From contig NC_079243.1 in the NCBI RefSeq assembly GCF_028009165.1, positions 372,001-436,000 on the forward strand: a stretch of 64,000 nucleotides of DNA, read 5' to 3'. Position 1 is the stretch's first letter. The number at the start of each line of letters is the position of its first letter. Positions 17,940-43,752 of the stretch are shown in pieces. The notes beneath the pieces were generated by a model. The model saw only the letters and a list, made by a program, of their open reading frames with translations, was not told the DNA's origin and did not search any database. The translations under genes were made by a program, and so were the position numbers. The DNA comes from Akanthomyces muscarius. Taxonomy: Eukaryota; Ascomycota; Sordariomycetes; Hypocreales; Cordycipitaceae.

Positions 17940-19682
17940 ATGGCATCGTTCGAAGTTTCCGCGACCATTGGTTACTCTCTTGTTCTCTGTGGGATCATGT
18001 CCGCGATACTGTGCTACAACTTCAGATCAATTCTGATCGCTTTGCAAGGCACCGTACGCAAACCACTATTGAAACATTTATCGTATTCACCCGTGGTTCA
18101 TAGTCTACGTTTCAAACTGCAATGGAGCCGAGCCGAGTTCTTGGCAGAACTTGCCTACCTAGGCTTCAGCATATTTTGTGTTTGTTTCAAAAGCCATACT
18201 GTCGAGTCGTCCGGTCGTCGAGCGGCGAATATGTGTATTGGTAACCTCATCTTTCTATGCATCACACCGCATCTTGACTCCCTGACCAATACGCTGGGAT
18301 TACGGTGGCGCACAGTTCGTAGAGTTCATGGTTCATTCGGTATCATGGCAATTCTACTACTTACATTCCATGTAGTTGCTTTTGCGTTTTCAAAAGCATC
18401 ATTCACCATGAGCGTGGCAGAAAACAAATGGGCAGTTGTCGTAAGGCGCCGTTCCCTTTTGGCAGAAGGCTCGAATAATAAATTAACGTTTGCTAGGCAG
18501 CGGCCTCCGTGGGGGGCTCCTTGATCATTTGCATACCCGCCATACGATCGAGGTGGTATGAAGTGTTTCTACGACTTCATCAGGGCCTTGCAGTCGTTTC
18601 GGTGTACGGAATATGGGTGCATATCGCTTCACAGCGGTTGCTCCCCCATATACATTTGTACCTACTCATTGGCGTCGCTGCCTTTTCTCTGATGCTTCTG
18701 AGCGCTCTCGTCATAATTAGAAACGGCATGATGTGGCATACGCTTCCTCGCGCGGATATCATCCACAAAGAAGGGGCTGTACTTATCAGAGTGAATCTGT
18801 CTCGTCCTGTTCACGTGAGGGCCGGCCAATACATCAGCCTTTGGCTGTTTGTACCAACTACAAGCCCCCTCTCCATCATTCAGTGCCATCCATTCACGGT
18901 AGCATCTTGGTCAGCTGATGCTGCTACTACTTTGGACTTGCTGATCGAGCCGCGCGCGGGGCTAACTCAGCGTCTGCTACGGCGCAGCCGTGCACGACAG
19001 GATCTCTGTGTCGCCCTCTTCAGTGGCCCACACGGAAACAGCATACCAGTGGGCGATTACGAGGTAGTCTTGATGGTGGCTAGCGGATATGGCATCGCTG
19101 CACAGCTGCCGTATCTTAAACAGCTTTTGCACAACTATAACAGACGTAGCGCGCGGGCTCGGCGAATTCACCTAGTTTGGGAATTGAAAACATTAGGTAT
19201 GCTTGACCCGTAAGTAGTGCCAAAATAACTAACACAAGCAGATTTAGCGATTGCAATCGAGAGTTTGCTGAACAACGCGCTGGATGACGACACTCTGGAC
19301 AACGGTTATGTAAGGAACAATCTACATATTGCCAATACTAGCTGACAAACAAAAGATTCTTCAAATTTCTGTCTATGTAGAGCACGTGGAATTGGAGAAG
19401 CGAATGGGACGTCGTTCTAAAGTCATCAAAGGGCTGCCTGATTGGCATTCTATTGTCCAAAAGGAAGTCCAAGGCAAACTGATCAAGCGAGTGCAGGAAG
19501 AATCACCTGCCTTGGGAAGCATGATAGTTACAGGCAAGTTACAATTCCAAATTTTCCCAGATTTGTGTTAACCAAATACAGTTTCCGCTTCGACCCCAGT
19601 GCGGCAAGACCTGCGAGCAATTGTGCAAAGACACGTAGACAACGAGGTTGTCCTGGTAGAGTTAGATTATCAGCCTAGTTAA
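17940..19682 (+). CDS. Ferric reductase / NADPH-oxidase-like flavocytochrome
   Basis: Five exons: 17940-18440, 18497-19196, 19242-19309, 19356-19533 and 19582-19682, giving 515 aa. The last intron uses a GC-AG pair (GCAAGT donor). The N-terminal half is the ferric-reductase transmembrane domain: four heme-binding histidines in two pairs, H130/H144 (VHGSFGIM...FH) and H195/H209 (LHQG...VH), each pair 13 residues apart. The FAD-binding part carries HPFT at 298-301. The NADPH-binding part carries GPHG at 344-347 and VASGYGIAAQLPYL near 361-374. The protein moves electrons from NADPH across a membrane, typically to reduce Fe(III) or Cu(II) before uptake. No signal peptide is present, and it is somewhat short for the family. 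This class recurs as Starship cargo. Confidence 0.9.
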
Positions 19683-20996
19683 TTTTGTGAGGAAACTTTG
19701 AACGTGCGTCCCGAATTGACATGGTCATTATTGAGTGAGGATGCTATAGACTTGTAAGTCATACACTCTTAATGGGTCACGGTCATTATGTCAATGAGAA
19801 GGGCCGAACAGAAATTTGTCAGCGCACCGGCATGTTTCTAGATTGGGCCATCATCATGTCATTCATACTTGCCCCTGAACTAAAAATATCAAAAATTGAC
19901 GTACCATTCCACCATCCGCCAATGTCGAAGAGTCTGTACCCATCAGAGGAAGTACCGCCATGGCCGCGAAAAGTATCATTTTTACCTGGGCTGGTCAGAA
20001 CAAATTCTACCATTGCTGTATTCCATTCACTTATAGCTATTCCACATTATTAATAAAATGAATGTTTCAGAAACATAATTAGAAAGACACTCTCGTTTTT
20101 GGTTTCTTTAAACGTAGTATGACATCAATTCTTTGGCCGGATTGTAGCCATACTAGAGCCTAATAGCGACGTCTGATGGGTTCTTGTCCGTTCGTTTGCG
20201 TAGATGAGACTCTGTTAAGTGTCATCTCTGGCATTCGTGTATTATACCATCTGCCTCGCTTGTCTGCCCATGTATAGCAGTAGCGAACAATTTGATGACG
20301 TCGACAGACCGCTCCCAACCAATGCTATTTAGATCTTACGCCTAAATTTTGTTTGCATCAATCACGTCCGCGCTGTAGGCCAAGAAGTTTGCCACAGTTC
20401 CGGAGCCAAGCTTGCTTATCGCCAGCACTTGGCACCCAGAGCGCGGTTTCCAAGGCAGATACACCGGAAAGCCACAGTTGCCAAGTTCAACCAACCACAA
20501 GCAACCCGGCAGCATATGAGAGATGACGTATTTTAACAACGGTTTTTTCTTTCCAACTGCTTGTCTATATTTGGCAGTGACCACCAACCAGGTAAAGCAG
20601 CTACTGGATGCTGAAAAGCATCGAAGAAATGCTGCAACCTATTTTGAAGATTTCTCTTGTATACATATGTTCCCAGGCACTGAAGCAAAGTAAAGGACCA
20701 TTGCTGAAGCCAATTATGCGAGAAGGTCTCACGGGTGCTTGGTGCTTTCTGCCTTATCATCTAGAATCAATTTGCTGACGTTGAAACGCAGCATGCGTAT
20801 ATTGAAGATTTTGCTACTGTACTGTGAACATCAAGCGTTCTTTTATCCACGATGGTTTACTGCTTGTGGACAAAAATGCCCCTGTGAAATGCTAAGAAAG
20901 CGGCCGAAAACGATTGTCTTCTTTTAAGTAGCAGACTCACCGTTACTATAAATTGCGGTATTGATCCATGACAAAAGATGCTGGTCAGCAATCATC
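19683..20996. other. Intergenic, no confident gene
   Basis: Short frames at 19772-20053 (+) and at 20342-20587 and 20533-20760 (-) have no family. A spliced reading of the two minus frames was tried and gave no good junction. A TATAAA at 20947 serves the next gene. Confidence 0.5.
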
Positions 20997-22259
20997 ATGG
21001 CTCAAACGAGAAGCCAGACAGCAGGCAATCAGCCGACGAACATCAAAGACCAGAAGACCAAGCAGCAGGATAACAGTATTTCGAAGAAAAAGGATTCTAG
21101 CAAGACATCCAAAAATTTGGAGAAAACCCTTACTGCTGCAGCAGATGCGTACGAAAAGGCAGATGACGGCAAGAAAGCAGAAATGCAAAATCAGTTGAAT
21201 GTTCACCAACCCTTGGAGAAGCCGGAGGCCATGGAGGAGGATGAGGAGGAGTCCAAAGGAGAGCAACCCGTGAAAAAAGAGCCCGAAGAGAGCGGTATGT
21301 TCGTTTCGACGACCGGTGGGGGCCAGGTTCATTCGTCGAAGGATGACGGAGGCTCGCCGTCAGACCAAAAGCCGTCGTCCAGCAAGGAGAAGGACTCAAA
21401 GCCGCCCAGTGACAACCACGAGAAGTCTCCCCCGCCAAAAGTAGGCTTCCAACATGGCTTGGCCACGCCTTCAACTGACGTTGAAGATGAATTGGACCTG
21501 GTACGAGCAAATCCCATGCGTGAGATCTTCCACGACGGCGCGTCTGAAAACGTAGGCTGGGCAAGGCTCTCGTATGGCCGTGCTTTCGATGTCGAAAGAC
21601 ATGGGCCACCTAACGCCGCAAGATTCAGATTCAAGCGACGTAACGACGAGATCAACACGGACAGTCTCGACGATACTTCGTTTGGAGACAAAAAGCGGCG
21701 CAATGGCAGAAAGGTTTACCAGTGTGGTGACATGTTAGCAATCCAGGGTGTTGCCTGGCAGTCTCTGAAAGGAGTCGACCACTACTCGTCACTCGCGCCC
21801 CGCAACTGGAAGCAAGGGAACAAAACAGCACGTCCTTCGATGCGCATCATGGTGAAATGGGAAGGAAAGGATGAGAATGCGGGGAAGGAAGTGACGAAAT
21901 GGGAAAAGCGTGACGCAGTGTGGAGGTGCTGGGAAGATGAACGAGGCAATGGAGGTGCCACAGTTCTATGTGAGGAGGAGCTGAAACTGGGTGAGGCTGT
22001 CATCTTGGAAAAGGGGGAGACCGTTTCGCTCTGTGACTTTGTGATTGTCACTGCCGCGTGTCGAGGCGAGAAACGATTCAAGGAGTGGGAATCGCAGCAG
22101 CGGCCGGGAAGGGACCGCTCTCCTACGCCTGGGCTGCCTCTATTGAACAGCAAGAATGAGAAGCAGTCGGGTGATGAAAAAGGCTCCGAAAAGGCGCAGT
22201 CATCTCAGCGTACAAACAACGCAGAAGAGGCTGGGGGTCACGGAGACACTACCCACTAG
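20997..22259 (+). CDS. Charged, mostly disordered protein, 420 aa
   Basis: Single frame from ATG 20997, with TATAAA 50 bp upstream. Residues 1-150 are very rich in Lys, Glu, Gln, Ser and Pro and are surely disordered, with an acidic block (EAMEEDEEESKGE). Residues 180-370 look folded: alternating hydrophobic and charged strands, a basic patch KKRRNGRKVYQCG, and a Trp-rich part (VAWQSLKGVDHY, ...AVWRCWEDERG). The C-terminus is again low-complexity. Basic clusters suggest the nucleus. I recognise no domain. A GTATGT at about 21296 could be a donor for a short in-frame intron, which would shorten the protein slightly. Confidence 0.6.
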   Translation: MAQTRSQTAGNQPTNIKDQKTKQQDNSISKKKDSSKTSKNLEKTLTAAADAYEKADDGKKAEMQNQLNVHQPLEKPEAMEEDEEESKGEQPVKKEPEESGMFVSTTGGGQVHSSKDDGGSPSDQKPSSSKEKDSKPPSDNHEKSPPPKVGFQHGLATPSTDVEDELDLVRANPMREIFHDGASENVGWARLSYGRAFDVERHGPPNAARFRFKRRNDEINTDSLDDTSFGDKKRRNGRKVYQCGDMLAIQGVAWQSLKGVDHYSSLAPRNWKQGNKTARPSMRIMVKWEGKDENAGKEVTKWEKRDAVWRCWEDERGNGGATVLCEEELKLGEAVILEKGETVSLCDFVIVTAACRGEKRFKEWESQQRPGRDRSPTPGLPLLNSKNEKQSGDEKGSEKAQSSQRTNNAEEAGGHGDTTH

Positions 22260-22637
22260 CCGCTAGTCGATGCTGCCGTGGCTGGGCTCGTATGAGGTTT
22301 GCAAAGTTTAGGCATGGATGTAGTGATTTACTTAGATACATGTTTGTGTATAGACCTCTCATGTTTGTTGAAATAGAATGATCTTTGCGGCAAAAACGGT
22401 GGCCCACATACGTGTTTTATGCTACTATAATTCAGCAGCTCGAAGTGCTGACAAACCTGTGATGACAGCAAGGTCGTGGTCTTCCGAGAGACGATAAGCG
22501 GTTAAGAATCAGTCCCGATCTTTGCACTTGGGTTCGTAAGCATACAGAATAGTCATATTTAGCAGGGCAGTTCGCTGCCTACATCAAACAACACATCACA
22601 CTTGCACTGTATTTTTGTATCCACGAATTGTGTATTT

Positions 22638-22823
22638 TCACTGCTCTGTAGGAGAAACTCGCTTGCCACCGTGCACGGTATTCTTTTGAACAGCGCCGTC
22701 AGGTAGATAGGCGGGCGGTATCTGAAACCGAACACGTCGACACTGATGTCTCTTCGATGACTTCGCAGGGACCTTGTCCTTTCTTTTGCTCTCAGCTAGA
22801 AAATAGTCGACAAAATCGTCCAT
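22638..22823 (-). CDS. Small hypothetical protein, 61 aa
   Basis: ATG-initiated frame. It starts with an acidic/aromatic MDDFVDYFLAESKRKDK segment and continues basic and Pro-rich. No family or promoter is recognised. It could be real, or a fragment. Confidence 0.25.
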   Translation of the reverse strand: MDDFVDYFLAESKRKDKVPAKSSKRHQCRRVRFQIPPAYLPDGAVQKNTVHGGKRVSPTEQ

Positions 22824-23107
22824 ATTGCGGAAGAATTGATCGTCATATATGCTGAACTATCTCGTAGATTAGTATTTGATTCAGGCCGTTCGTTCTGAAT
22901 TGCGACTGACAGTCGTTGAGAGATTCATATTCATTAAAATCCAGTGAAGTTTCCCTGGTGTAGGTGCTATGCTGAGGAGGCGCATGCATCCTCGCACAAG
23001 TATAATATTAAATAATCAGCCTTTCAATAGGTACCGTAGCCTTCGAGTACCAGCCTATTCTTGACGGGTGTAGGGGCAGTTGCCGCAACATCATGGCAAA
23101 TCTTTGG

Positions 23108-23335
23108 TTGCGCAACGTTGCGGCCGAAAGTCGTGTCGTGGCCGAAAGTCGTGTCGTGGCCAAAAGTCGTGTCGTGGCCAAAAGCCCTGCTGTGCGTAAA
23201 TAGGTGCACCGCCGGCGGTAAAACGCCTGCTTGAGGCCCAGCCAAAGAAATGCCCCAGCTTCTAGGGTAGGAACATCACTTTTGGCCACAGCACGACTTC
23301 TGGCCACAACACGACTTCTAGCCGTAACATGGGCC
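23108..23335. repeat. Inverted repeat built from tandem ~18-bp units
   Basis: The left arm (about 23108-23190) has three to four direct copies of an 18-bp unit like AAAGTCGTGTCGTGGCC. The right arm (about 23278-23335) carries two to three diverged copies of the same unit in the opposite orientation, and the outer flanks also pair. The loop between is about 90 bp. This layout (terminal inverted repeats made of sub-repeats) could be a MITE-like element or a hairpin. Confidence 0.75.
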
Positions 23336-24210
23336 ACATTACTATTTTCGGATACGACACAACACCAAGAACCAGCGCAAAAAGACGCCAGCAGGGCATG
23401 GGCAAAACAGAACAAATGAACAAGTACACAAGTAAACAAGCGAGAAACGACGTAGCCTGCTAAGCAATGGGAAATCGATCCAGGACCGCTACCTAGAAAG
23501 AATTGCGAGGGAAGTCGGCAAGAAGTAAATCCTGCTTTGCCTTTTTTTTTTTTTTTTGCTTTTTGTGTTGCGCTGGAAGAACATGCAGGCGGCTCGAGGT
23601 GTGGCTGCCAGCAGACATCCTTTCTACGCACAACACGAGAGCGCGTGGTGGGTGATTCACTCGGAGCGTTGGGTAGGTTTTCTGCTTCGTGGTGCAGTCC
23701 TGGGTTTGGGTGGCGAATTTCACACAATTGTGCCCTTGGCGGTTATGTGAACAGTATTCGATAGCTGTGGTGCAATTTTGAAGGCACTGGCGTTGCTGGT
23801 GAGTATACACCGAGCTCGAATTATCTTCTAAGCTATATTACAAATATCGAGTTGTGAAGAAAGACCGAATGAATGCATTCGACAAGATCAAGTCGCGGAA
23901 GGCCAGCAAACGCCTGCTGCAGGCCGCACCCCATATTGTCGCAAAGAAAAAAAAGGAATAAAAAGCCATAGTGGTACGCAGATTACATCCGCAGGGGACC
24001 AGTCATGGTTCATCAGTCTTGGGTCTACCAGCTGAGTAGCTCGAGTCAGCCACCTCTGACTGTCCACCATTCCACCCGAATGCCGCAGCTAGTCTTTTGG
24101 GAGAGGCTTTACATCACACACATAAAAGACGACATGTGCATAGGTATTGGATTTCCATGTAGGATCCTGCTGCCCTGTGACTGTTTCGAGCCCCGGCGGC
24201 TGGCATGGAG

Positions 24211-24423
24211 TCATTTCGGATTGACTTCGTGGGAGGCTTCGCGCACGGAGCGGGCAAACCAGTGCTGTTGATCTCGCTCCATGTTCGCTCGTTCTTTCCG
24301 CAGCGTTTGCAAAAGTAGGAAATGCCCAATTAAGTAGCGAAGGCAATGATGCGTCTGCGAAGCTTCACGTCGAATCTTTTCCGTAGCCATGCCGGCTAGG
24401 GTGTCAATCTCGGTAAAGTTCAT
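24211..24423 (-). CDS. Small helical protein, 70 aa
   Basis: ATG-initiated frame whose product is one continuous charged helix with leucine/isoleucine spacing (TEKIRREASQTHHCLRYLIG, LLLQTLRKERANMERDQQHW). A TATATATATA run lies about 17-26 bp upstream of the ATG, closer than usual, so either the transcript start or the start codon may differ. No known family. Confidence 0.35.
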   Translation of the reverse strand: MNFTEIDTLAGMATEKIRREASQTHHCLRYLIGHFLLLQTLRKERANMERDQQHWFARSVREASHEVNPK

Positions 24424-24888
24424 GATTAGATCGTCAGCACATATATATATACCACAGTAGTCTCGAATTATGAAAACGAATACCGGTATCAAGAAGTTTA
24501 GATGTGTAGCCTGCGGCTGTCGATAATAATGTAGAATAGAAAATACTACGATTTTAGATTGACATGAGCAGACGTATACTATGCATGTAATTGCCATTGG
24601 CGGCCACTGACTCAAAAAGTTGGTTAGCCTCCTAACCATCTCTTTGAAAGCTTTTCTCCAGGCATGTAGTTGTTCGACTGAAATTAGACCGTTTTAGGTG
24701 TCCAAGAGTTGTCAATTCACGGTGTCGGGGCAACAATGGCCATTTCGGACGAGCTGCAATTGGACGTAGACCACTTTAAGCCGAGCATTACATTTGTTCC
24801 GCCGCGACTCCGAGTAGTATTTAAAAGACTCTCGGAAGGTACCACTCCCACTTATTTCGGGGAGGAGTTTTGGCGAAATCGACACAAC

Positions 24889-25552
24889 ATGCGTGTTGTG
24901 TCAATTTCTCTCTACACGGCTCTCTGCACTCTCCCATTTACTCTCGCCACTACTGAAGATGAAAACGTTGTAACCGCCAAGGTCACTAGGACTATCACGA
25001 TTTGTCCCATATCTGGAACCTGGATCGGCAGCGCAAGGTAAATGCACTCTTTAACTCGCGAAAACTATGCAGACTTCTCACATTCATAGAACGGCCTACA
25101 CAATCGTCTCCAACACTGATACCTCAACCACAACGTCGATTGAAAGCAGTGAGCCTGAGCGATCGCAGTGGCCCCACGCTACATCCCCTTCCAGTGAAAC
25201 GCCATCCACCACTTCGGACGCAGTCATGACAAGTACCCATTGGGCCACGGCTACTGTTTTCAAATTGTTGGAGAAGAATGATACAAGCGACAAATTACCC
25301 GAACCTACCGAAACCACCACATATTTCAGCCAGGAGAACATCTCCACGTTGGCTACGCTAGCATCTCATTCGTTCGGAAACCTGAATCACACTGGAATAG
25401 GCAGCCACGGCCTATTCAGCGGTACTTCCGGTCACAGCCTGCCATCCTCACCTACTCTGCCTGTTTCGACCTCGAGTTTCGTGAGTAGTGGTGTCCGGTT
25501 GTTACATCCCTGGTATTTTGCTTTGATTGTGGCATTTGCATTTACTCAGTAG
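24889..25552 (+). CDS. Predicted GPI-anchored, Ser/Thr-rich cell-surface protein
   Basis: Two exons (24889-25037 and 25090-25552) joined over a 52-nt intron (GTAAAT...CATAG) give 203 aa. Residues 1-20 (MRVVSISLYTALCTLPFTLA) are a signal peptide. The middle is Ser/Thr-rich, with clusters such as TDTSTTTSIESS, as in O-mannosylated wall proteins. The last 17 residues (LLHPWYFALIVAFAFTQ) are a hydrophobic tail preceded by small residues (SSFVSSG), the signature of a GPI-anchor signal. It should end up at the plasma membrane or covalently in the cell wall. One Cys only, so no CFEM domain. Splicing was chosen because it alone joins the signal peptide to the Ser/Thr-rich frame. Confidence 0.75.
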
Positions 25553-26829
25553 CATCTAGCACATAGTAGTATAAATAGACATCATTCCACAACTTGCAAC
25601 TTCGTTCTTTAATGCGAGGTGGAGGCATGTGGTCCGGGGTCGCAGTGACGGATCCCGGCGTGCTGTGCTCTCGGATTCCACGAAATTCTTATTCCCAGAG
25701 GTCGCAGCTGCGAATTAAGCTCGGTTTACTATATCTTTCTAGCCTCTAATTATAGTATAGCTTTGGCAACCTTTCGCATGCACTTCGTCGTCTCTGGGCT
25801 ATTCATACAGGTCCACGGACAAGTCAGCGGCGACTCCTCTTGGTTCGGGATTTGCAGGAGTCTAATGTGACGACGCGACGCATGAGCCACGAGACACTTT
25901 AGTAGACGCGAAGCGTTGCCCTCTGCGCTTGTTGTCAGCGGATCTTAAAGTCCATTTTAATTGTTTTCTTTTCCCTTCTTTTTTCCATCGCTAGGAGCCT
26001 TAAATCTATTCCTGCACCACTGGCGGGATTGGCAGCTGCCTGGCGTAGTTAGTTGCCAAGCAGCCCTATTTGCTTGGACCTTTCAGATCCGTGTCCACTA
26101 CTTCAGCAGCTTCTACAGCGCCTCCAGGTGATCTTGAGCGCTAACGTATGGCGATTTGGTGGCAGTTCGCCCGGACGACCCACTGAAATATATGATAAAT
26201 GGACATCTGACACCTGTTGTAGACTGGTTTGGACTACCCTACATTGGCCTCCCGCACTGGCTCGTGGTTGTAATTTCAGAACGTGTTGCCTCTTGGGCCG
26301 GCAACTATCGGTACTTTAGCAAGGAGCAAATGACGCTGTGTTAATCGCGATAATCTTGGGTTTGGACCTCAACCTTTGCCTGTGTATAAATACATGGCTG
26401 TTGACTCTCTGTTGCGAAACTCTACCCCATGTGGATTCAATACTCCACCGCCACCTTTCTCCATCGGCAGTCTACTCGGGCAGAAACTTTGCCTCGGAAT
26501 TTGTCCCTGGCCGTTGGTCGCGTCGCACGTGTGGTCTGATTAGAGCCGACATCCCTTTTCCGCGGCTCGAAGTGCCCTATCGGTCGAGTGCTGCTTGGCA
26601 GGTGTCCAGACTCAGAAGCTACCAGTTGTCATTCCAGAAGCTATCCAGGAGGGTGGAGCAGACTATACATACCTACGTCCAAGCCGGCGCCGCCAGCAAA
26701 ACGCGCAGGTCTAGAACAACAGAGATCAAAGAACCTTGGAAGATCTTTTGCCGACAGCATCACACCGAAAATTATCGAGGACCAAAAGCTTATCAGCCTT
26801 ATTAGTTTTGTTGAACTCTTGAACAGTAC
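25553..26829. other. Intergenic with possible gene fragment
   Basis: A protein-like frame at about 26165-26344 (+) (for example LPYIGLPHWLVVVISERVAS) follows a plausible acceptor (GGTGGCAG) and branch site (GCGCTAAC), and it fits a phase-1 exon ending at 26128. No start exon is found, so it looks like a remnant. TATAAATA at 26383 may be the promoter of the next gene or of an unrecognised spliced gene. Confidence 0.45.
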
Positions 26830-27333
26830 ATGGCCCAATCCACATCAACGCAAACATCTACCTCTCTTGCACTGGTCTTCTTTGTTGCCCTCGACGCTGT
26901 GCTGGTTGCGCTGAACTCTTTCAACGCATACACGCTCGTCTCCGTGTCTAAAAAGTCCGCGCCGCACAACTCTGAAACAGACTGTAGCATCAATGGGCCG
27001 ACCTGCTTTCCATATCTGTTTGCATATTCACTCACTGCAGGTGGTGGCGCCGCCCTGCATGCGGCAGTCGGCATCGTCTCCCTCTTTGCTGCTGGAAAGC
27101 CTCTGACAATGTACAAATGGACACATTTCGGCCTCGCGGTCGTACTTGTGATTATTGGTCTATGTCTTGCCATAGAAATTACAGAACTAGGCCGCAGTTT
27201 TTACATGCGTTTTGGCGGACGGAACACCGTCTACTTCCAAATACTATACTATGGTAGTTTCTCCCAATCAATATACGGTGTCAGTGGCGCAGTTTTGACT
27301 GCCATCGCTTTCGCCAAATCTGCATTTTCATGA
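26830..27333 (+). CDS. Four-pass integral membrane protein, 167 aa
   Basis: Single exon. Four hydrophobic segments lie at about residues 13-33, 65-88, 97-117 and 140-163, separated by short polar loops. The first loop contains two cysteines (DCSINGPTC), which could form a disulfide. There is no signal peptide beyond the first helix. The size and layout resemble other small fungal tetraspan membrane proteins, but there is no diagnostic motif, so function is unknown. A 74-bp tandem duplication lies just downstream. Confidence 0.65.
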   Translation: MAQSTSTQTSTSLALVFFVALDAVLVALNSFNAYTLVSVSKKSAPHNSETDCSINGPTCFPYLFAYSLTAGGGAALHAAVGIVSLFAAGKPLTMYKWTHFGLAVVLVIIGLCLAIEITELGRSFYMRFGGRNTVYFQILYYGSFSQSIYGVSGAVLTAIAFAKSAFS

Positions 27334-27401
27334 CAGCTAGCTCAGACTCTTCATTGAAGAACATCGTCCATGAACTCTCAGGTGTGCTATTGGTGGTCAA
27401 T

Positions 27402-27549
27402 TATACGGGTTGTATCGGGTACCTATCATCGGCAGCCTCAGCAACAGGGGCATGAAGAGCCTTCAACTAGGAGAGTATACGGGCTGTATCGGGTACCTAT
27501 CATCGGCAGCCTCAGCAACAGGGGCATGAAGAGCCTTCAACTAGGAGAG
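27402..27549 (+). repeat. 74-bp tandem duplication
   Basis: Copies at 27402-27475 and 27476-27549 differ at one base only (T/C at the tenth position), so the duplication is recent. It falls in non-coding DNA just after the tetraspan gene. Confidence 0.97.
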
Positions 27550-27783
27550 CTTCCAATCTATGGGTTTCATAAAAAGGCTGAATGCCTTACAAGAGTCTCT
27601 ATTAGAAGAAATGTCAACACAGAGACAGAGTGTACTCTGCCCTCGGAGACAATTAGTTACACAATGTATCACATTCATGAGTTTGAGAGGCGCCAAAAGC
27701 ATAACATATCATTTTGTATCTTAGTTCTTAAAATCTGCTCTAACCTTTTTTCCTCACGCAGCTGGCAGACGCAGCGAGGGCCG

Positions 27784-28678: not shown

Positions 28679-28735
28679 GACGGGCCGTGTATTCTGGTAT
28701 GAGACAATGAAGAAAAAAAGAGTTGGTCGTTGCAT

Positions 28736-28742
28736 CTATATA
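28736..28742 (-). promoter_or_regulatory. TATA box of the four-exon coiled-coil gene
   Basis: TATATAG on the minus strand, 58 bp upstream of the ATG at 28678. Confidence 0.55.
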
Positions 28743-31218: not shown

Positions 31219-31458
31219 GATCTAGATCTATGATATCGGTACGGGCCAACTGCATAGAAGCAGAGAAGTCAGCGAGCAGCGAACAGTGTACGGTCTACGG
31301 AGCAGAAATTTCTCTCTTTAAGTAGAGGGGGTCATCAAGTTGCCGCCTATAAGCACGCCATCTTCATCGGAGCAAAGCTTCTTTCAACTGTTTCCATTGA
31401 ACCTGTTGTATGCTATTGCTTGCGAAATGTGCTGGTCGCGGTGGCTGCGAAGGTCAAA

Positions 31459-33108
31459 ATGGTCTCTTCCAGTCGCAGTACATCGCCAGGTCGGCCTGGT
31501 GCTTCATATAAAGACAACGAGGCGTGTGAGGCCATGGAAACAGTGCACTGCTTTCCGATGGACACTGAAGACCAACTACTGAAACAAATCTCGTTGGGAG
31601 CCTACTCCAGAAAATCTATCTACCAAGCAATTTCTGCGCTAAAGGCCGTTCAACGAAGGTACCCTGCCATATCCCCCATGCCACCGTCGGGGTTGGGCTC
31701 AACAGCAACGGCCGAGGACGAAGTTAATTCATTCTTGCGCACAGAAGACAAGTTCTTGGAGTATGCTTCCAGATTTGCCGATACCGTGCCAACATCCGAA
31801 GGCTTATCGGAAGCGGCGTGGCACGTAGCACAGCAGCAAGCGCCCCCTCGACATGCCGTGCAGAGCTACCTCGATCTTCTACGGCAACTCGACAGCCCAG
31901 TTGAAATCTTACCAATTCGGCCACTTCGGAATCACATCACGCTGTCCTCCGAAGGCTCCGTCCGCCCTGCTATAATACCATTCGTGGAGGGCAGCGCGTG
32001 GGCTTTCGCTGTGGCGTATCCCGATTGCATTCACTGGTATGACAGCAGATGCGACCAGCCTATCCCATCGCTTTCGTCGCCCGACAAGCGCGTGGTGACG
32101 AATCATTGGACCGGGCCCAAACATGAGAGAAATGGAGACTCTGGCATCTTCATGCTGATGGGTATTAGATGTATCCAACGTGGTGGTCCACATCTCCCTC
32201 AAGAGACTGCAGTCAACCTGGCATCGGCGTTTCGTGCACGAGTCGTGCTCGAGCTTCTCTGCGGCAAAATAGACCCATCCAGACATACTGCGGAGAGCTT
32301 GCTCTCCCAGGAGGTGGAAGAGCAGTCTCTGTTCTTTGAGGACGCGATGAATGGAATCGACAGGCAGTCTCCTGCTTCGCCGGATGCCGAGCCGGAGAAC
32401 ATGCTCGCTCCATCGCCATTCGACTCCGACCTCAGCCCCCCACCAGCTACCGCTTCTCTGGCACAGCCTGCATGCAAACGAGTGCGGCAGGAGAGTGGCT
32501 GTAAAGTGGCCGATGCCAGAACAATTCTCGCCAACCTCAACGAGGCGTCCCTCGCTACGCGGGCCGTGGTTCGGTCAGCGGGCACACCCTTGGACATTCT
32601 ATGGTTGCTGGTGCAGAACATCTCATCTACGAGCGCATTTCACGACCGGCTTAACGCCATTCTCTTCTATGAGGAGATGACGCGCCATCGGACAGACAAC
32701 GACGTCAAAGAGGCGATGCAGCATCCGATCGACGTTCGAGACATGCGCATCGTACAGGCGCGCTGCAAGTTTTGGAAGGACGTCTGCGAGCTCCGTAGTG
32801 AGTGGGAGGAAGACAAGTATGTTTTGCTGCTGGCATTTCCTCGGGCGGTGACCGGGAGAACCGGCCGGGCGCGGCACATCCAAGAACTAGAGCGGAGACT
32901 GAATGATCGTGATGACCATCTTCAGCAGTATCTCCACGCTGCGAGGGACCTGTGCCGCGCCATCATCCATAGTTCTCTCCCGTGCGAGAGTCTGATGATA
33001 GACATCTATCATTTGAAGCAGCATGAGCCTTTGTCCGACAGCATGTATGACGCATTCGTGAGCGTGAAGCCGAGGGCTAGAGTACCTCTACCACGCTTAG
33101 CAAGATAG
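31459..33108 (+). CDS. Ulp1-like (C48-type) protein with degenerate active site
   Basis: Single exon, 549 aa, starting at ATG 31459. The middle (about residues 165-285) follows the layout of Ulp1/SENP cysteine-protease domains: IIPFVEGSAWAFAVAY, IHWYDS, then a QNDSxCG-like region reading NGDSGIFMLMGIRCI. In active enzymes the first block has a His and the last reads D-C-G. Here those positions are Ala and Ser, so catalysis is unlikely and the domain may only bind SUMO or ubiquitin-like partners. The N-terminal 130 and C-terminal 200 residues are helical, with a disordered Ser/Pro segment around 300-330. The family call is inferred from pattern only. Confidence 0.55.
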   Translation: MVSSSRSTSPGRPGASYKDNEACEAMETVHCFPMDTEDQLLKQISLGAYSRKSIYQAISALKAVQRRYPAISPMPPSGLGSTATAEDEVNSFLRTEDKFLEYASRFADTVPTSEGLSEAAWHVAQQQAPPRHAVQSYLDLLRQLDSPVEILPIRPLRNHITLSSEGSVRPAIIPFVEGSAWAFAVAYPDCIHWYDSRCDQPIPSLSSPDKRVVTNHWTGPKHERNGDSGIFMLMGIRCIQRGGPHLPQETAVNLASAFRARVVLELLCGKIDPSRHTAESLLSQEVEEQSLFFEDAMNGIDRQSPASPDAEPENMLAPSPFDSDLSPPPATASLAQPACKRVRQESGCKVADARTILANLNEASLATRAVVRSAGTPLDILWLLVQNISSTSAFHDRLNAILFYEEMTRHRTDNDVKEAMQHPIDVRDMRIVQARCKFWKDVCELRSEWEEDKYVLLLAFPRAVTGRTGRARHIQELERRLNDRDDHLQQYLHAARDLCRAIIHSSLPCESLMIDIYHLKQHEPLSDSMYDAFVSVKPRARVPLPRLAR

Positions 33109-33933
33109 ACTTTTCATGCACGTTGTGCGTGGTACTTCATTCCCGACACTGCGAAGTCACAAACAAGCTACGTTAGATGGTTGGCTGGGAGACAAATATA
33201 TTCTAGCCCACCCCATTCTTGTGGTGCATGCACGGAGGCGCCATATCACGGTCGTCGAATTTCGTAACGAAACAATTTTGAGCTTTCGGAAGGCAACTTC
33301 GTTAAATCACTAGACGCTACATATTTTACCAGTATGATTAATATAAGCAAATATCATTCGATGTAGTTATCCGCATAGCGGAATGAGCATGGCGGCAACG
33401 CGAGCGCCATAGTTAGCTTTGGCTGTGAAGTTTACTGAAGAAGCTAGCTATAGTGGGATCGGCTTCATGCCTGCATGCGTCCACTTTCCTTGCCAGCATT
33501 ATCACCTAACCAGATCAATTACCATCGTGGGTCGACACATGCGCACACCGCGCTTGTACTTGAGAAGCTCGGAGATCGTTACCTATGTTACCATCTTGCT
33601 GGTGTTTGATGCGAAAAGAGCTTCAGTTCCCACTCTACCTTGTATTTAGCGTGCGCTGCGGCAGCTAAAGACGAGCGGCTAGTAGCAGGTTTTTACAGGC
33701 CATCACGCTAAGCAGTAGGTGCCTTGAGTGGGCTGGCAGGCTTTATTTTTAGAAGATTTTTTTTTTTTTTAAAGAACGGGCTAGGTCTGATTATACATGA
33801 ATAAGTGCCGAGATATGGAAAGGATTTATTTCCATGACTCCAAATTAATGAAAAAGGATGTCATTTCAGCTCCAACGACAGTACTTATACATTTCTATCG
33901 GAGCACAAAACTTGAAGTAGCCTGACATTCTTT
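33109..33933. other. Convergent intergenic with dispersed repeat
   Basis: Contains the repeat at 33668-33802 and a run of 14 T residues. No gene seen. Confidence 0.6.
33668..33802 (+). repeat. Dispersed repeat, copy related to 17131-17245
   Basis: Same ordered blocks as the copy at 17131, but with a T-rich insertion before the shared GTCTGATTAT end. Same orientation as the other copy. Confidence 0.65.
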
Positions 33934-36900
33934 TCATCCACAAGACTCTCCGCCATCCTCGTTGCACGCAGCGTAGCGTTGACGATGGTATGCAGTCCCG
34001 AACGGTGCATAGAGATGCTGCTGCTTCTTCAGTCGGGCCAACGTGAATGGAGACCCGCTGATGTTGGACGACGTGGAATCCTCCTCTACCGTGATTGCAA
34101 ACATTTGCTGAAGGCTAGGCACCTCGAGCGCAACCTCCTTCTCAAAATGGGTCGCATCGAAGATGCCATCTCTACCTCTCGCCACGATGGGAGCTTGTTG
34201 TCCTTGGCACTTGAAGACAGCGGATGAATTGAGCAGCTGGGTGAGAAAAACACGCAGCTCCTCAGAACCCGCTCGTAACCGGCACTTCAGCATGCCTGTG
34301 CAATAATATGTGCCATTACGCATGATCAGGGGAAATCCTGAGTCTAGCTCCAGGAAAAACAGGTTCGCACGAAAGCACTTGGCGAGACGTCTCATTTCCG
34401 TCGAGGCTAGGGCGATTTCGCGTGCCATCTCCGCCACCTCCTGCATGCTCCCCACATCATCCAGGGCTGGCTGGTCGTCCCCGAAGCGAATATCAAAGCG
34501 GAAAAGGTCTCCTCTTTTGTCTAGCTTCTGATGACGTAAAAGCTTGTCCCATGCAGCCGCGGAGTCACTTTGCCTCCAGAAGGCTCGAAACAGCCGTGCT
34601 GGGAACAGACTGTCCCAAAGCGACGCGCTGTTGCGCTTTTCACCTATGGAGCCGGTGCCCAGAGACACGACGATACTCGGTTCCGTTAGCGGGGGAAACA
34701 GGGATGCGGCTTCGTTCAGCGCGATCGCTGCCGGATTGTTGAAGGCCAGCCCGCCATCTTGGAACGTCCCTGTTCCAGCAATGTGATGAGGTGTGAAATA
34801 GCTGACGGCAGCAGGTTAGCCAGCGTCGTTTCTGCGAAGTTCCCGCGTACTTACTAAGGCGCAGCCGTACAGCATCGCAATCTAGCGTCTATCAGTATTC
34901 ACCACGGTGTCGTATCCTTCCCGCAAAATGTACTCACATTTCCCACAGGGGTACGTTGCGCGCCCCATTACTGAATATCAACGTGGTATAGTCTGCTTCT
35001 GCCCGTGTCAATCACTGAGTTTTGTCGTAACCCAACAAAACGTACCAGTTGCATCGTTACGACAACCAACACCGTTGTAGTTCGTCGCAATGCAGGTGCT
35101 TGCATCGTCCGTTGTCGTCAAAGTCACACCGAGCGCGATGCCCATCTCACTCGCGGCGTTGGAGTCCACAATGCTTCTACTCTCGCCGTACGCGTCTTTT
35201 TGGATGGACTCGAGTCCCTCGGCTGAGTACTTGCTGTCTACCAGCAGAGAGCTGAGGAATTGCAGCAACGGGGACAGGATAGGCACATTGCCTACCAGGG
35301 GAGCAACGACCCGGAAAAGATGGTTGGCGTCAAATGCCAGACGCGATGACAGCTCGAAATATTCAATGCAGCGGTCTACCTCCCATCCATTGAGGCAAAG
35401 GGCACATGCCGTCATGGCCCCTGATTTGGTTAGCACGCTAGACTGCAGATTGCCGGGGAAGTGCCTACCAGAGCTAGTGCCAAAGACAACGTCGAAATGC
35501 CGCGGTACGGAGACTGGCAGATCAATCATCTCTTCCAAGACGCGAAGAGATTCCAGCGGCCCCCTGCCTCGAATCCCACCACCGTCAATGCTTAGTATGC
35601 GCACGTCGGCGGTGTCCGGCTTGATGCGGATGCGGCGCTCATCTGTTCCCATCCCACAAATGACGCAGCAGTCGACGTTGTACAGCCACGGGTCGTCCAG
35701 ATCGGCATCATAAAAGGTTCGAACACATATGTGGCACAGCCAGTGGCCGCAAGGCAAGCAGTGCTGCGGTCGTCGCTGGAGGCAGGCGAAGCAGGTATCT
35801 TCCGACGAGGGTAGGCAGCTCCTTCTTTGAGCATGTGCCAGTTGCAGCCTATGGAGGCTCTTTGGTCCGCCGTGATGTTCGAGATGGTCATACAGTACAC
35901 AAAGGTGTTTGACGATGAGCGACGGAAAGTCGTGGGTCATGACAGGAAGACCAGCCTCGTTGCGGTGCGCCGCAATTGCCCTGGCGACGTTGTCGCAGGA
36001 CTCCTGATAAAGAGAGTCGAACACAGCCGTAGGGTCGAATTCTAAACCGTTGATTAGTTTTGATGATATCTTCGCTGTAAGCTTCGATCTGCACATACCG
36101 TGCATGCCTGGTACATAATGATTGAGCAGGAAGCTGGATGCTATGAGCGGCGCAGCGACATCCACCACATCATCATGGTGCGGGAAAAGCGAAACCAGGT
36201 TGAATATATGGGATTCCATGTTCTCTTCCACTTTATTGGACAACCTTGACGCCTTCACCAAATCCAGAGGTGTCCAGTCTGCTTGTGCTGCGCCGGCGGC
36301 AGTGAGACGCAAAAACTCGAGTACGTGCCGAGCGGAAAACAACAGGCTTTGGCGGCGCCGTTCTCTCGTGCTGGCGTGAAGCAGTTGGGATATCTCCCTT
36401 GATAGTGCTTGGTAAGACTTGGCCTGTCGTCTACTGCTGCGTTGGTGTGCCTCGCGGTCGATGCCCACCACGCGAGTCACACGGAACCAGCCATGTGGTC
36501 GCTGCAATTTCTCCGCATGTAGCTTCGCTCGTACGTTGGCTTCGCTTCCTCGGTCCACGACCAGAATGACGGCTAGAGAACGGGCCGCTTTTGATGATGG
36601 GCCTTGACAGTTCCAAGCGGACAGATGCTGGATTGCGACGTCGCTGCCGCCGATGTCTTCCGTGAAGATGCAGACAACATCCGTCAAGGGGAACAGTGCT
36701 CGGTGATAGAGGCTATCGCTGACCGAGGCTGCCAGAAGAGGTGTCTCTGCATACTGCGTGGAGTTGACTTCATGGCAGGCGTAGACTCCCCGTGTTCTAG
36801 GGAGTTGGCCGTGTGTGGGGAGATCGCCGTCCGCGATGAGTATCTGCTGCTTATCTCGCAGTTGCGCTACGTCCAAGTGAATCTCGCCGTGTGACTTTCT

Positions 36901-37101
36901 CGCCCGCGCCGATCGACTGAGCAGATGCAAGGCGCTAAAGGCACCATACTTTCGTTGATGGCCAATAAAAACAGCGACCCCGAGTGGCTCCTCCGGGCAA
37001 ACAGCGTCAAGTAGGCGGCCAGGGCGATCGGATACCTCCAGGGTCGCGTGGCTCCCTCTTTTCCAAACTCTCAACCACCCAGTATGCTTACAGAAGCTCA
37101 T
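33934..37101 (-). CDS. Patatin-like phospholipase with RING-like motif, 968 aa
   Basis: Six exons: 37101-36099, 36041-35469, 35420-35046, 34998-34938, 34881-34855 (27 nt) and 34801-33934. All junctions keep frame and use GTATGT, GTAGGC, GTACGT, GTGAGT and GTAAGT donors. The patatin domain has the oxyanion motif DGGGIRG at 487-493, the nucleophile elbow GTSSG at 522-526 (Ser524) and the catalytic Asp in DGG at 695-697, so it should be an active lipid acyl hydrolase. Just before it, residues 418-463 hold a RING-like C-x2-C...CGH-x2-C-x2-C...C-x2-C cluster. The N-terminal 330 residues are a large unassigned domain. Patatins of this type recur in Starships and in fungal NLR-like proteins. A TATA box lies at 37171. 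Confidence 0.88.
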
Positions 37102-37507
37102 GATGAGACGAGTGAGGCACGGCTAGGTTGCAGTGCAGCTGTTCATCACTTTTCCATGGTGCATTCTCGTCTATATATCAGCCATGGTCGATCAGCAAGA
37201 AACTCGGAGATCGAGTTGTGTTCAAATAGCCAATGAATCAGTCCGATATATTTGGCGTCCACTTGTGCGCATCTCTCTGAAGAAAAGCATTCAGAAAACA
37301 AGTGCTGGGAGACACTCTGACCATCCAGGATTGATCTGATGAAGCAGATACTCGGAAATGGGCATGAATGAGGGCATGAACGGGATTGCGAAATGGCATA
37401 TCAATATTCTTCGTGCATGGCGCAACAAACGATGCTCAACAAAGACGCGTAAGACTACACCCTGCGACCCAGCACTGTCCTAGCGGCCATCATTCTAACT
37501 TGTGTCT
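37102..37507. other. Promoter region of the patatin gene
   Basis: Holds the TATA box at 37171-37177 and the 3' end region of the chromodomain gene. No gene. Confidence 0.55.
37171..37177 (-). promoter_or_regulatory. TATA box of the patatin gene
   Basis: TATATAG on the minus strand, 70 bp upstream of the ATG at 37101. Confidence 0.6.
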
Positions 37508-38434
37508 CTAGCCTTGCTTGCGCTGTGCGCCCTTTGCGCCTTTTGCTCCTTTTGCACACATCACACCTTTTCTGTCAGCAGCTCGTTTTGCCCTCACCTT
37601 GACCTTTTTCTTCATCTTTTGCCATTCACCAACTACCTCCGCTGCATTCCGCATATCATCTTCGACAACAAGACTAGGCACCCATTTCACCATGTAATAC
37701 AGCTTTCCAGCTTTTGTCTCTTCGCCAATGATTTCCTCTACTTCCCACTCCTGCTCCAGGTTACTGTATTGTGCATTCTCCGAGGCAATAGCCTCGTGCT
37801 GTGCCTGAGACCCGAGATCTTCTGCTGACATTAGCCTAGCTTCCTTGTACGCAGACACGCATCATACCGCTCGGTGGTTCTGGTGAGATATCTCTCGCTG
37901 AGCCTTCCGTGTCGTGCACAGCGTCCTCGCTGACGCTCGCCACAGAAAGTATCTCTGACTGGGTATGGGAGCGTGCTGCGCCCAACTGAGAATGCCTAGC
38001 AGAGGACGGGCGCAGTTCCGGGATCATGGCAGCGAGCGGTTCCGAGGCGGATTTGTACAGTCTGCCTAGCAGCGGCTGGTTACCTGCATGTAAGTTAGCT
38101 TGTGCGTGGTTTTCTGCGCGCAACAGGCCGCACCGAAAAACATATCGCTCGCAAGGTCAACGTTTGTGGCTTGAGAGGTAGGCTCTTCCGTACCGACACG
38201 AAAGTTCGTATCTATCACAGGCTCTTTTAAGACTGCATGTCTGCTGGGTGCGAAGGTCGGAGCATCGTCTTGCTTGGAGGGCAGTTGTTTCGTGGCCTTC
38301 TTCTGCGCGGCTCTAGATTCTTTCTCCTTCACCTCTGCGTAGGCCCTTTCAGTAAATGGCTGCTGGAAAAAGACGCCCATGATGCTTTGCGTAAAGAAGT
38401 GGATGAAGAACGGGCATTTTTTGGATTTTTGCAT
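37508..38434 (-). CDS. Chromodomain-like protein, about 277 aa
   Basis: Three exons: 38434-38134, 38083-37868 and 37824-37508. The introns are 50 nt (GTGCGG donor, GCTAAC branch) and 43 nt (GTATGA donor, GCTAATG branch). The first donor is weak, and a GTACGG about 60 bp upstream is an equally in-frame alternative. The C-terminal 100 residues contain a chromodomain core: EWEVEEIIGEE, then KLYYMVKWVPS with the conserved YxVKW, then NAAEVVGEWQKM. It ends in a lysine-rich tail with KGAKGAKGA repeats. Chromodomains bind methylated histone tails, and they also occur in Ty3 integrases, but no integrase is present here. The N-terminal part is Lys/Glu/Ser-rich and disordered. Probably nuclear. Confidence 0.6.
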
Positions 38435-38895
38435 GGAAGGGCGACTATTTATATAAGTCTACAACCGGTCTAGGCAGGAAGTGGGCACACCCTTCCCATT
38501 CCCAGAGTGCAGTCGCTTGGACACATTGACGTCACAACTTCTTCGGTCGGAAAATCGGTGACGGCCGCCTGGCTTAAGGGGTCTGTGAAGCCGGGGCTCG
38601 GGAGGTGCCCTATGGCGGCCTCCGTATGGCCGCGATGTTCACGCGCCGACACACACCCGATTTACGGTGCAACATATGGCACATGAGCTTTGGCACAGTG
38701 AGAGCAGCAGATCGACAGTAATTTTTGACTATTGTACAAATGCTTATAGCTATGCGATAATTTGTTCCACAGGGCGACCTTCTGTGGCGACGAGCTGCGG
38801 CCGTGGCACCAGCGACAGAGTGCTGATGCGCAGTTTTCCACAGAAAAGAGTGTCTTGACACTGTACGGCGCTCTTCCGGCCAAGTGGTCGTGTTA
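38435..38895. other. Intergenic, no gene
   Basis: Lies between the stop of the recombinase and the chromodomain gene, both on the minus strand. Nothing coding seen. Confidence 0.6.
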
Positions 38896-41357
38896 TCAAC
38901 GGAAAACGCTCGCCTGCAAATCTTGGCCATGCTCCTGGGAGTGGCTGGCAAAGTGCTCTCTGCTGCCAAGGATGGCCTCGCAATCTTGCCACGGGCATAG
39001 AAACGGCATTTTCAACTTGTTTAGATGCATGGTTTTCAGGTGTCTGACCAAATGTCTCATCTGCCAAGTCTTCGTGCGGTCGGCACTTCCATGATGCCCG
39101 TGCCAACGGCAAAACGCGCAGATTAGCCCCGTCTCATCACGATCCGGTGTGCGGTCTGCCATGTTCGGGCGACGCGGCCGCACTCTTCTTTTCTCACCGT
39201 CCGTTTCCCCTCCAGCATCAGTGAGCGGCGATGCTTGGCCTGTCCCCCTCGTCAGCTTGCGCTTAGTCTCCCGAATCGCCCGACTTTCCTGCCGGCCGCA
39301 GAGCCGACTGACCTCCCCTATAAGCTCGAGACGCAGCTCATGCAGCTGTTCTGCCCCGGTCACTTCTGCGGCCGCTGCATACGATTTAGCAACATGAGCT
39401 CTCTCGGGTAAGTCGTACGCTATGCTGGGCGGCGCAATGATGTCGGCGGGTTTGATGCCCCGCAGCTGGCGGTCTATTTCCTCCACATGGACATTTGTGT
39501 GAAACCTTTCCAGGACCTGCCGAAGGCGTATAGCCTTGAGATACTTGGACAGGTTCTCAGCTTCTCTGCTATAGCGATCGTAGTCCTGTCGCACGGTGGT
39601 ACCGGCAGCAGCTTCCCTACTTCGATAGCCCAGATCTTTCCATGCTTGCACGGCGTTGGCTTTGGCCAACCGAAGCGCCTTGAGATCGTCGTCTTCGTTG
39701 ATCTCTGCAAGCTCTTCCTCCGTCAGGCATGTAGGCGCCGCATCGTGACGCTGCAGCCGAGCTGCAAGGTGAATGAGATCCTGCTGCGGGGTGCTGCCGA
39801 AGCAAATGGATTGGCAGTCCCTGTCTATGAAGTTGGACATATAATAGGTCAGGTAGGTGCTCGAATCGCCTTTGCGATGACCCATGATCTTGTTTCTTTC
39901 CTCCGGCGTGAGCTCCTCTGTGGGACGCCTCAGTCTTAGCATATACGCCGCTTCGAGCAATCACTTTCTGGAGCAGGGGCCCACATACCGTTGATCCTCT
40001 TTCCTGAACCACGACGAAGGTCGTACCATTGTAGTTGCTTCTCAAATCCGGTAGAACGGCCTAATCGAATCAAGTGCTTCCGTTCCCTGTCATAAGACAG
40101 AGCTTTGGTTTCGGAAATAGACGAGCCGTAGGCTGTCGCTACAGTGTCGCGAAATATAGGGCGTTTTCGCCATTCTTCTTTCCACAGGAGCCGAAGTCGG
40201 TCCTGATTCGGCGGCACCTTGAGTTTGTAGATGTCCTCAGGTGTGGAAAAGCAGTTCAAAAAGGCGCCGTCAGAGAACGCGAGCGCCAAGGCCGGTATGA
40301 GGGGATCGTAGAGAAGCATATCGTCTTCACGGAAGGCAAACTTTTTCGGCTCGGAATCCCCTGCCGCTCGCTTGATATGCTCGAGATTGACGACCAAAAC
40401 GAGCCGTACTCGTTTGGAACCTTGAATTGGTGGGAAGACCTGGAATTCCCAATGCTCGTAAAGCATCGCTCCGATCAGGGCACCCGGTCGCGTTGCGGTA
40501 GCACCCGCGATAATCAGATTTTCTGCTAGCTGGGCGCGCAATCTCTCATGCTCAAAGGTCCCTTCATCGCGGATCCAGAGTTGGTTGAGTAGCATGGCCA
40601 AGTCCTCGATATAGAGCCCGGCTTTCTCCCTCTGCGAAGTATCAAGACAAAATCTCGGCGTCAAGTCTGTACGAATCCACTGTCGGTCATCAGCACCAAT
40701 ACGTTTCACGCATATTCCAGACTCACGTTGCGAACATCGTAGAGAATTGCATCGCTCATCCAGGCTTTTGCCTTCTCTGCATATACCATGCTCAAGGTTT
40801 TCCAGTATGTCATGATGGATGACTGTTTTTCGATCCGCGACATCTTCACCCGCCGGACCAGGTACACTTTGAATAGTGCTGCATCGCTGCGCTTCAGTTG
40901 TTCCTCGGGGTCTTTCGCCCGGCGTTGGCAGAACCTGTAGTGGTAGAAGTCAGCCTGCTGCCGTTAAGTCTTCCGTTGTGCCGCGCGCAGTGCTAGTCTG
41001 GCGGTTATCTTACGCGATCCATTTGGCCTCCTCTGATTTTTTGGCCGCTTTGGTCTTTTCACTGTGATCGGCTAACACCGGTCCATCGTTTTGGAACTTC
41101 TCGTACAGCTCATCTTCGGATAGCTCTGTGTATGGATTTGGCTCCGGCGGAGACATAGGCAGGTCATGAGAGGTTGGCGGGTCGGACGAAGCCGTGCCCT
41201 TGTGAGAGACTGCCATACGTTGTGTTTTGTCCCAGGCCACTGTCGAGAAGTTCTGCACGACGGAACCCCTTTTTTGGCGTCGGATGTTCAAACGCTGCAT
41301 GGCCCGTCTCGCTTGAATATTTGGGCTAGTCACCGGGGCCAACATCAACTCTGACAT
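38896..41357 (-). CDS. DUF3435 tyrosine recombinase (Starship captain family), 765 aa
   Basis: Four exons: 41357-41014, 40934-40727, 40679-39989 and 39950-38896. The introns are 79, 47 and 38 nt, the last unusually short. The central part shows tyrosine-recombinase motifs: the first catalytic Arg in AGATATRPGAL (about residue 248), a Y-x-x-R box WYDLRRGSGKR (about 402-412), MGHRKGDSS with the box-III His, and a Tyr cluster STYLTYY that supplies the nucleophile (about 440-446). The layout after it (LTEEELAEI, long helices, then LCGRQESR and two C2H2-like fingers, C-x2-C...H and C-x4-C...H) is that of DUF3435 proteins. Such enzymes mobilise Starship and Crypton elements. An in-frame upstream ATG at 41510 lies too close to the TATA box to be likely. 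Confidence 0.85.
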
Positions 41358-41548
41358 GGCTCTAGATGGTTTCGAGTAGATCTTTGCGCGAAAGCGAGAG
41401 AAGCAACCTAAAGAGTTCCAATGCAAAGTGGTACTTGGAGGATGGACAAATGAGAAATCATGGGCAACGGCAACTGGATAAGCAAGATGCTGGAGTTTTT
41501 GCTTTGGCATTGAGATGGAGGACGAGGTGCGAAACTTGGCTCTACGCC

Positions 41549-41556
41549 TATTTATA
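41549..41556 (-). promoter_or_regulatory. TATA box of the DUF3435 recombinase
   Basis: TATAAATA on the minus strand. It is 39 bp from the in-frame ATG at 41510 and 192 bp from the chosen start at 41357. Confidence 0.5.
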
Positions 41557-42480
41557 GACGCAGAGTCTACGAAAGCCGTGCGGATCTGGAGCAGGACACG
41601 TGAAAGCAGAGGTTACACATTGTTTATACCACAGAAAGGACCAGTTTATGCAACATTGTCTAGCCAGGTGCTCGCCTGTTCGCGGCCATCTGCGATACCC
41701 AGGATGCACACAAATGCTACAGCTGATCACTGCCGTTGCGCCGACTTGGAATCAAACGCCGTACATGATGACGAACGAGGACTTGTGCTTCAAAACATCG
41801 GAAACACCCTTGGGGGGCAGTCCCGAGGCAACATTCACTTTGAGCGTCACCCATTCGGCCAACGGTCGGGGCGCATCTTGTTCCGATATTTCGCTCGCGA
41901 TAGCATGGCGTCTGTATGCTTCTCCATCATTGCAGTACTGTATTCCTTTTTTTTTCTGTTGTCTCTTTGCTCACTTATGGTAGTAAGTAGAGGTGTGTTT
42001 CGTCGCAATGTGGCCAGTCCAACTCCAGCTCAACTACAACCGATGCACTGCTGGGACAGCTACAGCTGCTCATAGCGTTCAGAAAGTATTGCATTCAATT
42101 GATTCTTAACATTGATAATAATACTGTACTATTAACATTGGTATTAATAATAATACTATCAATAATGCATCACTATATGGAGTACAATGCTGATGATCTG
42201 CAGGCCTCCTCGAGTATCCTTCGAGCAAACAAATGTGTCAAGAACGGGGAAACGTAATCATAGAAGATACCACTTGAAGAAGGAGAGTGTCCCATTTTAT
42301 TGTAAATCATGATCTAAGTATCTGTACGAAGCTGTGGTGAGTAAACTTAGGGCAGCCCCTCATTATAGATACTGAGCCCGTCGCCGATGCAGCGACCACC
42401 ATGCAAAAGTTAGAATCAGATCACCGCAAACACTTTTGCAGTTTTCTGTCGAGTTGTAGTCTGCATTCTGGGTATTCTTT
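41557..42480. other. Upstream of recombinase, no gene; expected Starship 5' edge
   Basis: No coding sequence supported. It includes an AT-rich stretch at 42100-42175 with repeated ATAATACT and ATTGATA-like words. If the captain is functional, the element's 5' terminus should lie in this interval. I see no convincing terminal repeat by eye. Confidence 0.5.
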
Positions 42481-43696: not shown

Positions 43697-43752
43697 GACT
43701 TGATGAAGAGAGCAGAAAAAAAAACGAATAGAAACGTGCCAGCTCGTGGCCT

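Follow-up and report, generated by a model that had tools for sequence, protein, structure and literature searches.

Captain, cargo and an inverted duplication: a likely Starship-derived region in Akanthomyces muscarius

The locus described here raises the question of whether a captain-type recombinase gene and the genes that it faces belong to a Starship, and whether such an element can be delimited. The window, the whole stretch of 64,000 nucleotides that was analysed, corresponds to C3:372001–436000 of a genome of 36.19 Mb on 12 contigs, and its genes were modelled with a home-made predictor, which makes the models approximate (Table 1). Within the Starship superfamily the captain gene carries a DUF3435 domain (PMC12134995), and NLR, patatin-like, ferric reductase and DUF3723 genes are the accessory families (PMC12506042); PMC11623301 was also consulted. 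A preliminary description of the window had proposed an undescribed Starship at 17940–41600, with captain, patatin and ferric reductase inside 23.5 kb and the captain pointing into its cargo. All three genes were found (PF11917, PF01734 and three ferric-reductase domains), 23.4 kb separate the start of the ferric reductase from the start of the captain, and the captain is indeed directed towards the other two.

Table 1. Features of the window, with positions counted from its first nucleotide
Feature	Position	Strand	Basis or remark
Ferric reductase, FreA-type metalloreductase	17938..19682	+	PF01794, PF08022, PF08030 above cut-off
Inverted segmental duplication	20936..64000, on to 70255 past the window		Partner C3:577561–519989; flank comparison
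ORF of unknown function, left end of duplicated block	20997..22259	+	
ORF of unknown function, common to sister copy	29397..30197	+	
Bys1-family secreted protein gene	30715..31218	-	PF04681 E 4.3e-25
Putative Ulp1-like gene	31187..33108	+	PF02902 E 0.11; single long ORF
Patatin-like gene, RING-like Cys cluster before patatin domain	33934..37101	-	PF01734 E 1.4e-7
Chromodomain-like gene between captain and patatin, model approximate	37495..38382	-	Chromo E 0.017, below cut-off
Captain, DUF3435 tyrosine recombinase with C-terminal C2H2-like segment, 754 aa	38896..41357	-	PF11917 E 1.9e-69
Captain exons	38896–39917, 39989–40679, 40727–40934, 41014–41357	-	
Near-identical tract	39007..60684		Copies separated by one 1-bp gap, at 57726

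The captain and its neighbours

The start codon of the captain was re-set by means of its homologues, 141 bp upstream of the first model. Its active-site columns are conserved in the homologue alignment, and a structure model of the homologue P0001 has a Cre-like fold (434 of Foldseek's 445 top-ranked PDB chains were aligned in this comparison). The captain is a Cre-fold tyrosine recombinase as predicted from homology and modelling, and both marks of a Starship captain, the DUF3435 domain and, on this basis, the Cre-like tyrosine recombinase, were found in it. HhpA, the captain of Hephaestus, is likewise a DUF3435 recombinase with a Cre-like fold; its two transposition-essential tyrosines lie 35 residues apart, and those of Sanctuary 34 (PMC12506042). 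In P0001 the candidate pairs, Y418 with Y451, Y454 or Y455, lie 33, 36 or 37 residues apart, and the likeness to HhpA is one of domain, fold and tyrosine spacing by description, not of compared sequences. A PF11917 profile search of the genome returned four matches, which fall on two C3 loci, and no further full captain. The nearest named homologues of captain and patatin belong to Beauveria, Zarea, Cordyceps and Lecanicillium. In a tree that holds the window captain and 30 of 61 database homologues, and no named reference captains, the window captain pairs with that of B. asiatica (95/92) inside a Cordycipitaceae clade (100/100), beside other Hypocreales, and a Monosporascus captain stands among Diplogelasinospora captains. 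Truncated captain pieces stand behind the same upstream segment in two Beauveria proteins, P0029 of B. bassiana and P0051 of B. asiatica, the latter annotated as a BAH-domain protein.

Next to the captain lie a chromodomain-like gene and the patatin gene. The chromodomain label of the preliminary description falls short of the Pfam cut-off, but is backed by Beauveria homologues: the gene is homologous to the N-terminal part of P0063 from B. asiatica and of P0066 from B. neobassiana. The start of these proteins aligns at 38380, and in each a chromodomain segment and a patatin share a single gene model. The same two proteins served to mend the patatin splicing at GTSSG, a motif that is present in the translation together with DGG; the Cys cluster matched zf-RING_5 at E 2.1 only. 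The succession of captain, chromodomain-like gene and patatin occurs twice on C3. A decayed third copy at C8:49753–52146, with several stops, retains the last third of the captain, the beginning of the chromodomain gene and the leading portion of the patatin. Apart from these copies, the genome contains only distant or fragmentary relatives of this patatin subfamily (on C7, on C1 and at C3:1347 kb). A PF01734 profile search of the genome missed the split patatin of the window itself, so that the count from that search is a lower bound.

Close relatives of the ferric reductase are few, the nearest of full length being that of Hirsutella minnesotensis (64% over the whole length), with Metarhizium brunneum at 66% over 67% and Beauveria bassiana at 64% over 57%. 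As to the genes in between, the Bys1 assignment was confirmed, and the Ulp1-like one remains a hint, although its ORF is kept in the sister copy described below, bar 47 gapped codons. No confirming domain was found for the GPI, tetraspan and coiled-coil labels, and a Ser/Thr-rich protein had no Pfam match. The ORF at 29397–30197 contains a 264-bp stretch that also occurs, 88% identical, on C8. There is no tRNA or Rfam RNA in the 64-kb window, which disposes of either as a target site.

The inverted duplication and the sister locus

The second captain lies in a sister block, C3:519989–577561, which corresponds in opposite orientation to window positions 20936–70255, and the duplicated block continues 29 kb past the 5' side of the captain. 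One border of the near-identical tract falls inside the captain's last exon and the other 19 kb past the captain start. A further stretch (63185–66162) has zero differences between the copies, and most of the duplication outside the tract has diverged by about 1–8%, on both sides. Since both the homology and the edges of the identical tract disregard the captain's ends, the two copies are not the footprint of captain-driven movement, and transposition was discarded as their origin. On the pattern of differences, we read the two copies as accounted for by an old segmental duplication with gene conversion. RIP was also set aside: the copies have no marked C-to-T context bias in their transitions, and the composite index is negative in all 16 of the 4-kb bins of the window.

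Seven genes common to the copies in the diverged left part together carry 42 synonymous and 48 nonsynonymous differences, a ratio of 0.35 (p 1.1e-6 against site proportions). These pooled genes are 7 of the 17 gene models compared, the others being the captain (one difference), at least eight genes free of differences and two right-hand genes (ratios 0.91 and 0.63). As a group, the seven look constrained by their coding differences; one of them, h11, a low-score eight-exon model, has a stop in the sister copy.

Further from the captains the two loci carry unlike genes. At the position held in the window by the ferric reductase, which lies outside the block common to both captain loci, the sister has an intact-looking DUF3723 gene (C3:577867–581545; protein E 1.3e-136), directly past its block and after the counterpart of the ORF at 20997–22259. 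The sister captain also has, 88 kb away, an NLR-type gene whose product combines PNP_UDP, NPHP3_N/NACHT-like and ankyrin domains. That NLR and DUF3723 genes are not seen, as had been stated, holds in Pfam scans of selected window genes, but both occur beside the second captain copy. Of the accessory families, patatin and ferric reductase were thus found in the window and DUF3723 and NLR at the sister locus; these families are usual Starship content and not obligatory. DUF3723 occurs at four loci genome-wide (our own grouping of ten matches), and the other three contain in-frame stops where they match, although parts of these matches may be introns. The chance of a DUF3723 locus within 30 kb downstream of either captain is about 0.7% (four loci in 36.19 Mb), and that of one of the roughly 15 ferric-reductase loci (17 matches) within 24 kb about 2%, both levels being calculated by hand and post hoc for a uniform spread that ignores clustering of accessory genes. 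A fragment of a distal gene of the sister locus, r25 (C3:586191–587520), is present at 7751–8047 in the window (48% over 88 residues). By eye r25 looked kinase-like, and its first exon has no Pfam match.

Ends, alternatives and a proposed history

Comparison of strains is the accepted means of calling a Starship (PMC12289983, PMC12153272). In this one genome, ends were sought by comparing the 1.5 kb upstream of the captain with about 61 kb and about 62 kb of distal sequence: the upstream stretch had no word of at least 14 bases in common with either distal side, and none of at least 12 in common with both. The search for direct repeats proposed earlier gave common 11-mers in numbers slightly above the shuffles yet close to this control (34 and 26, against 21 and 23 expected from 20 first-order shuffles). 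The motif TTAC(N7)A, which, partly on a hint in the preliminary description, we take to be a Starship target pattern, occurs twice in the upstream 1.5 kb and is by itself no evidence. A short-query DNA search of the genome with the captain's 5' flank, which did recover the sister copy, found no captain-free copy; it returned only the two captain loci and 59 bp on C7. A similarity at C7:611622 was rejected as an empty site, as only 42590–42921 and 43061–43107 are paralogous there and the rest of 2 kb is unmatched. Whole-genome searches with long queries returned only part of the known sister copy, and absences in them carry no weight. The captain faces patatin and ferric reductase, and no edge was found in the homology that runs on past its start. 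The proposal of an undescribed Starship at 17940–41600 is therefore upheld for the captain and its Starship-type accessory genes, and the area is likely a Starship-derived region, but with no ends, with the duplication running through the presumed 5' border and with the ferric reductase outside the shared block, the interval is not callable as one element.

It is on balance probable that captain and cargo region represent the captain-bearing end of a Starship-type element, or a remnant of one, which was later duplicated and homogenised. Speaking for a Starship are the captain–chromodomain–patatin core with its decayed C8 copy, the DUF3723 gene past the sister block, the NLR gene and the Beauveria captain relics. 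Against it stand the homology between the loci that continues 29 kb beyond the captain start, the place of the ferric reductase outside the shared block, the preponderance of solo genes among DUF3435 genes, the lack of ends, clear terminal repeat and empty site in the genome, and the separation of captain and patatin in three relatives: adjacency, judged from locus-tag numbers, was found in none of B. asiatica ARSEF4850, L. saksenae and Zarea, in which the tags of the captain and the best patatin are far apart on host contigs of differing size. These last observations, which cover three of three species, would also fit a captain-like recombinase gene standing alone in an accessory region that is poor in genes, with patatin, ferric reductase and DUF3723 gathered independently. 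Such solo genes are common, as most DUF3435 genes are 'solo' (PMC12134995) and 143 Starships were counted against 10,628 orphans (PMC12289983), and the missing ends point the same way. We nevertheless consider this unlikely here, in that the order captain–chromodomain–patatin recurs at three sites, including one on a different contig, and one of only four DUF3723 loci lies just past the block of the second captain. An intact and still mobile Starship, with a 3' end further left than the ferric reductase or outside the window, is distinctly improbable: the captain ORF is open in both copies with a single difference, its active-site columns are conserved, and patatin and ferric reductase look whole as predicted, but no 3' end or repeat was found, the distal parts of the two copies carry unlike genes and the PF11917 search revealed no additional full captain. 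Assembly collapse is a possible source of the identical tract, one 1-bp gap in 21.7 kb contrasting with 1–8% in most neighbouring stretches, but that its identity is an assembly or polishing artefact and not gene conversion, with the rest of the favoured explanation unchanged, seems quite unlikely given that unrelated sequence past both block ends and a one-copy stretch of about 9 kb mark two real loci, and that gene conversion between inverted repeats yields the same pattern.

Under the favoured explanation of a duplicated and homogenised captain end, the captain would cut twice, just upstream of 41.36 kb and again at a distal site to the left, and would move the DNA in between, with the chromodomain-like and patatin genes as its nearest cargo. 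A later inverted segmental duplication would have placed a second copy of captain and cargo, together with about 29 kb of 5' flank, some 135 kb away; the middle of the two copies would then have been homogenised and their distal parts would have diverged, leaving the ferric reductase in the window and DUF3723, with NLR further on, at the sister. Captain and cargo may have moved as one unit, and the locus would now be either derelict or merely unbounded. A more specific version, of two inverted sibling Starship loci whose captain–chromodomain–patatin core is kept identical by gene conversion and whose distal cargo (ferric reductase versus DUF3723 and NLR) was changed by duplication and recombination and not by transposition, is put forward tentatively, as rather unlikely.

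Among known systems, Sanctuary, a Starship of Bipolaris sorokiniana, shares patatin, ferric reductase and NLR cargo with the window and its sister; it has a chromodomain gene in its conserved parts, and its inner content varies between copies, as here (PMC12506042). This likeness rests on gene content and layout, not on captain sequence. Sanctuary differs in having empty sites and a 6-bp direct repeat, in a captain that lies about 350 bp from the edge, where no end or edge was found here, and in a chromodomain gene at the far 3' end, not directly after the captain (PMC12506042). Verticillium dahliae likewise has captain-like genes whose borders are not detectable, in regions that are rearranged and segmentally duplicated as in our locus; there, synteny over 56 assemblies linked them to reference Starships with known bounds, compared with the one genome here (PMC12289983). 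The locus is probably a rearranged or derelict Starship region of a known kind, with putative mobility. Among the titles listed in searches of openly available papers, none dealt with Starships of Cordycipitaceae. If real, the region would extend Starship-type regions to insect-pathogenic fungi and would offer two captain loci in one genome for studying cargo turnover.

Repeats and genes of the wider neighbourhood

The region is accessory-looking within its Cordycipitaceae chromosome. The sister copy holds about 9 kb (C3:566.2–574.9 kb) that is missing at 23529–23848 in the window; this stretch carries kin of a repeat at 4735–5560 and of a TPR-like gene at 2537–3820, which in the window sit 18–21 kb further left than the place of their sister-copy kin. 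The repeat, of about 826 bp with ends of about 70 bp that match each other inverted, looks like a MITE with larger kin and is presumably Tc1-like. Near-complete kin occur on C11 and C8 and a split one on C3, and its end sequence also recurs in pairs, with a spacing of about 1.84 kb at six loci and of 2.0 kb at one more. A minisatellite-like stretch at 23117–23200 has similar counterparts at C5:912 kb and several C3 sites. A short interspersed repeat of about 62 bp (26109–26175), without tRNA or Rfam match in the window, is found 78–89% identical on most contigs and makes up 25 of the 44 matches listed in a whole-genome DNA search. Within the first 313 kb of C3, kin of the BAH-annotated part of P0051 occur at five places (C3:47–313 kb), with one more copy at C4:4110 kb, and this distribution suggests a duplication-rich chromosome arm. 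Some 14–20 kb left of the window (C3:351.6–358.3 kb) lie a GATA factor and a KilA-N/APSES protein, presumably stuA, which are probably conserved host regulators bounding the accessory stretch on that side. Two F-box/ankyrin genes in opposite orientation lie left of the ferric reductase, at 11561–15101.
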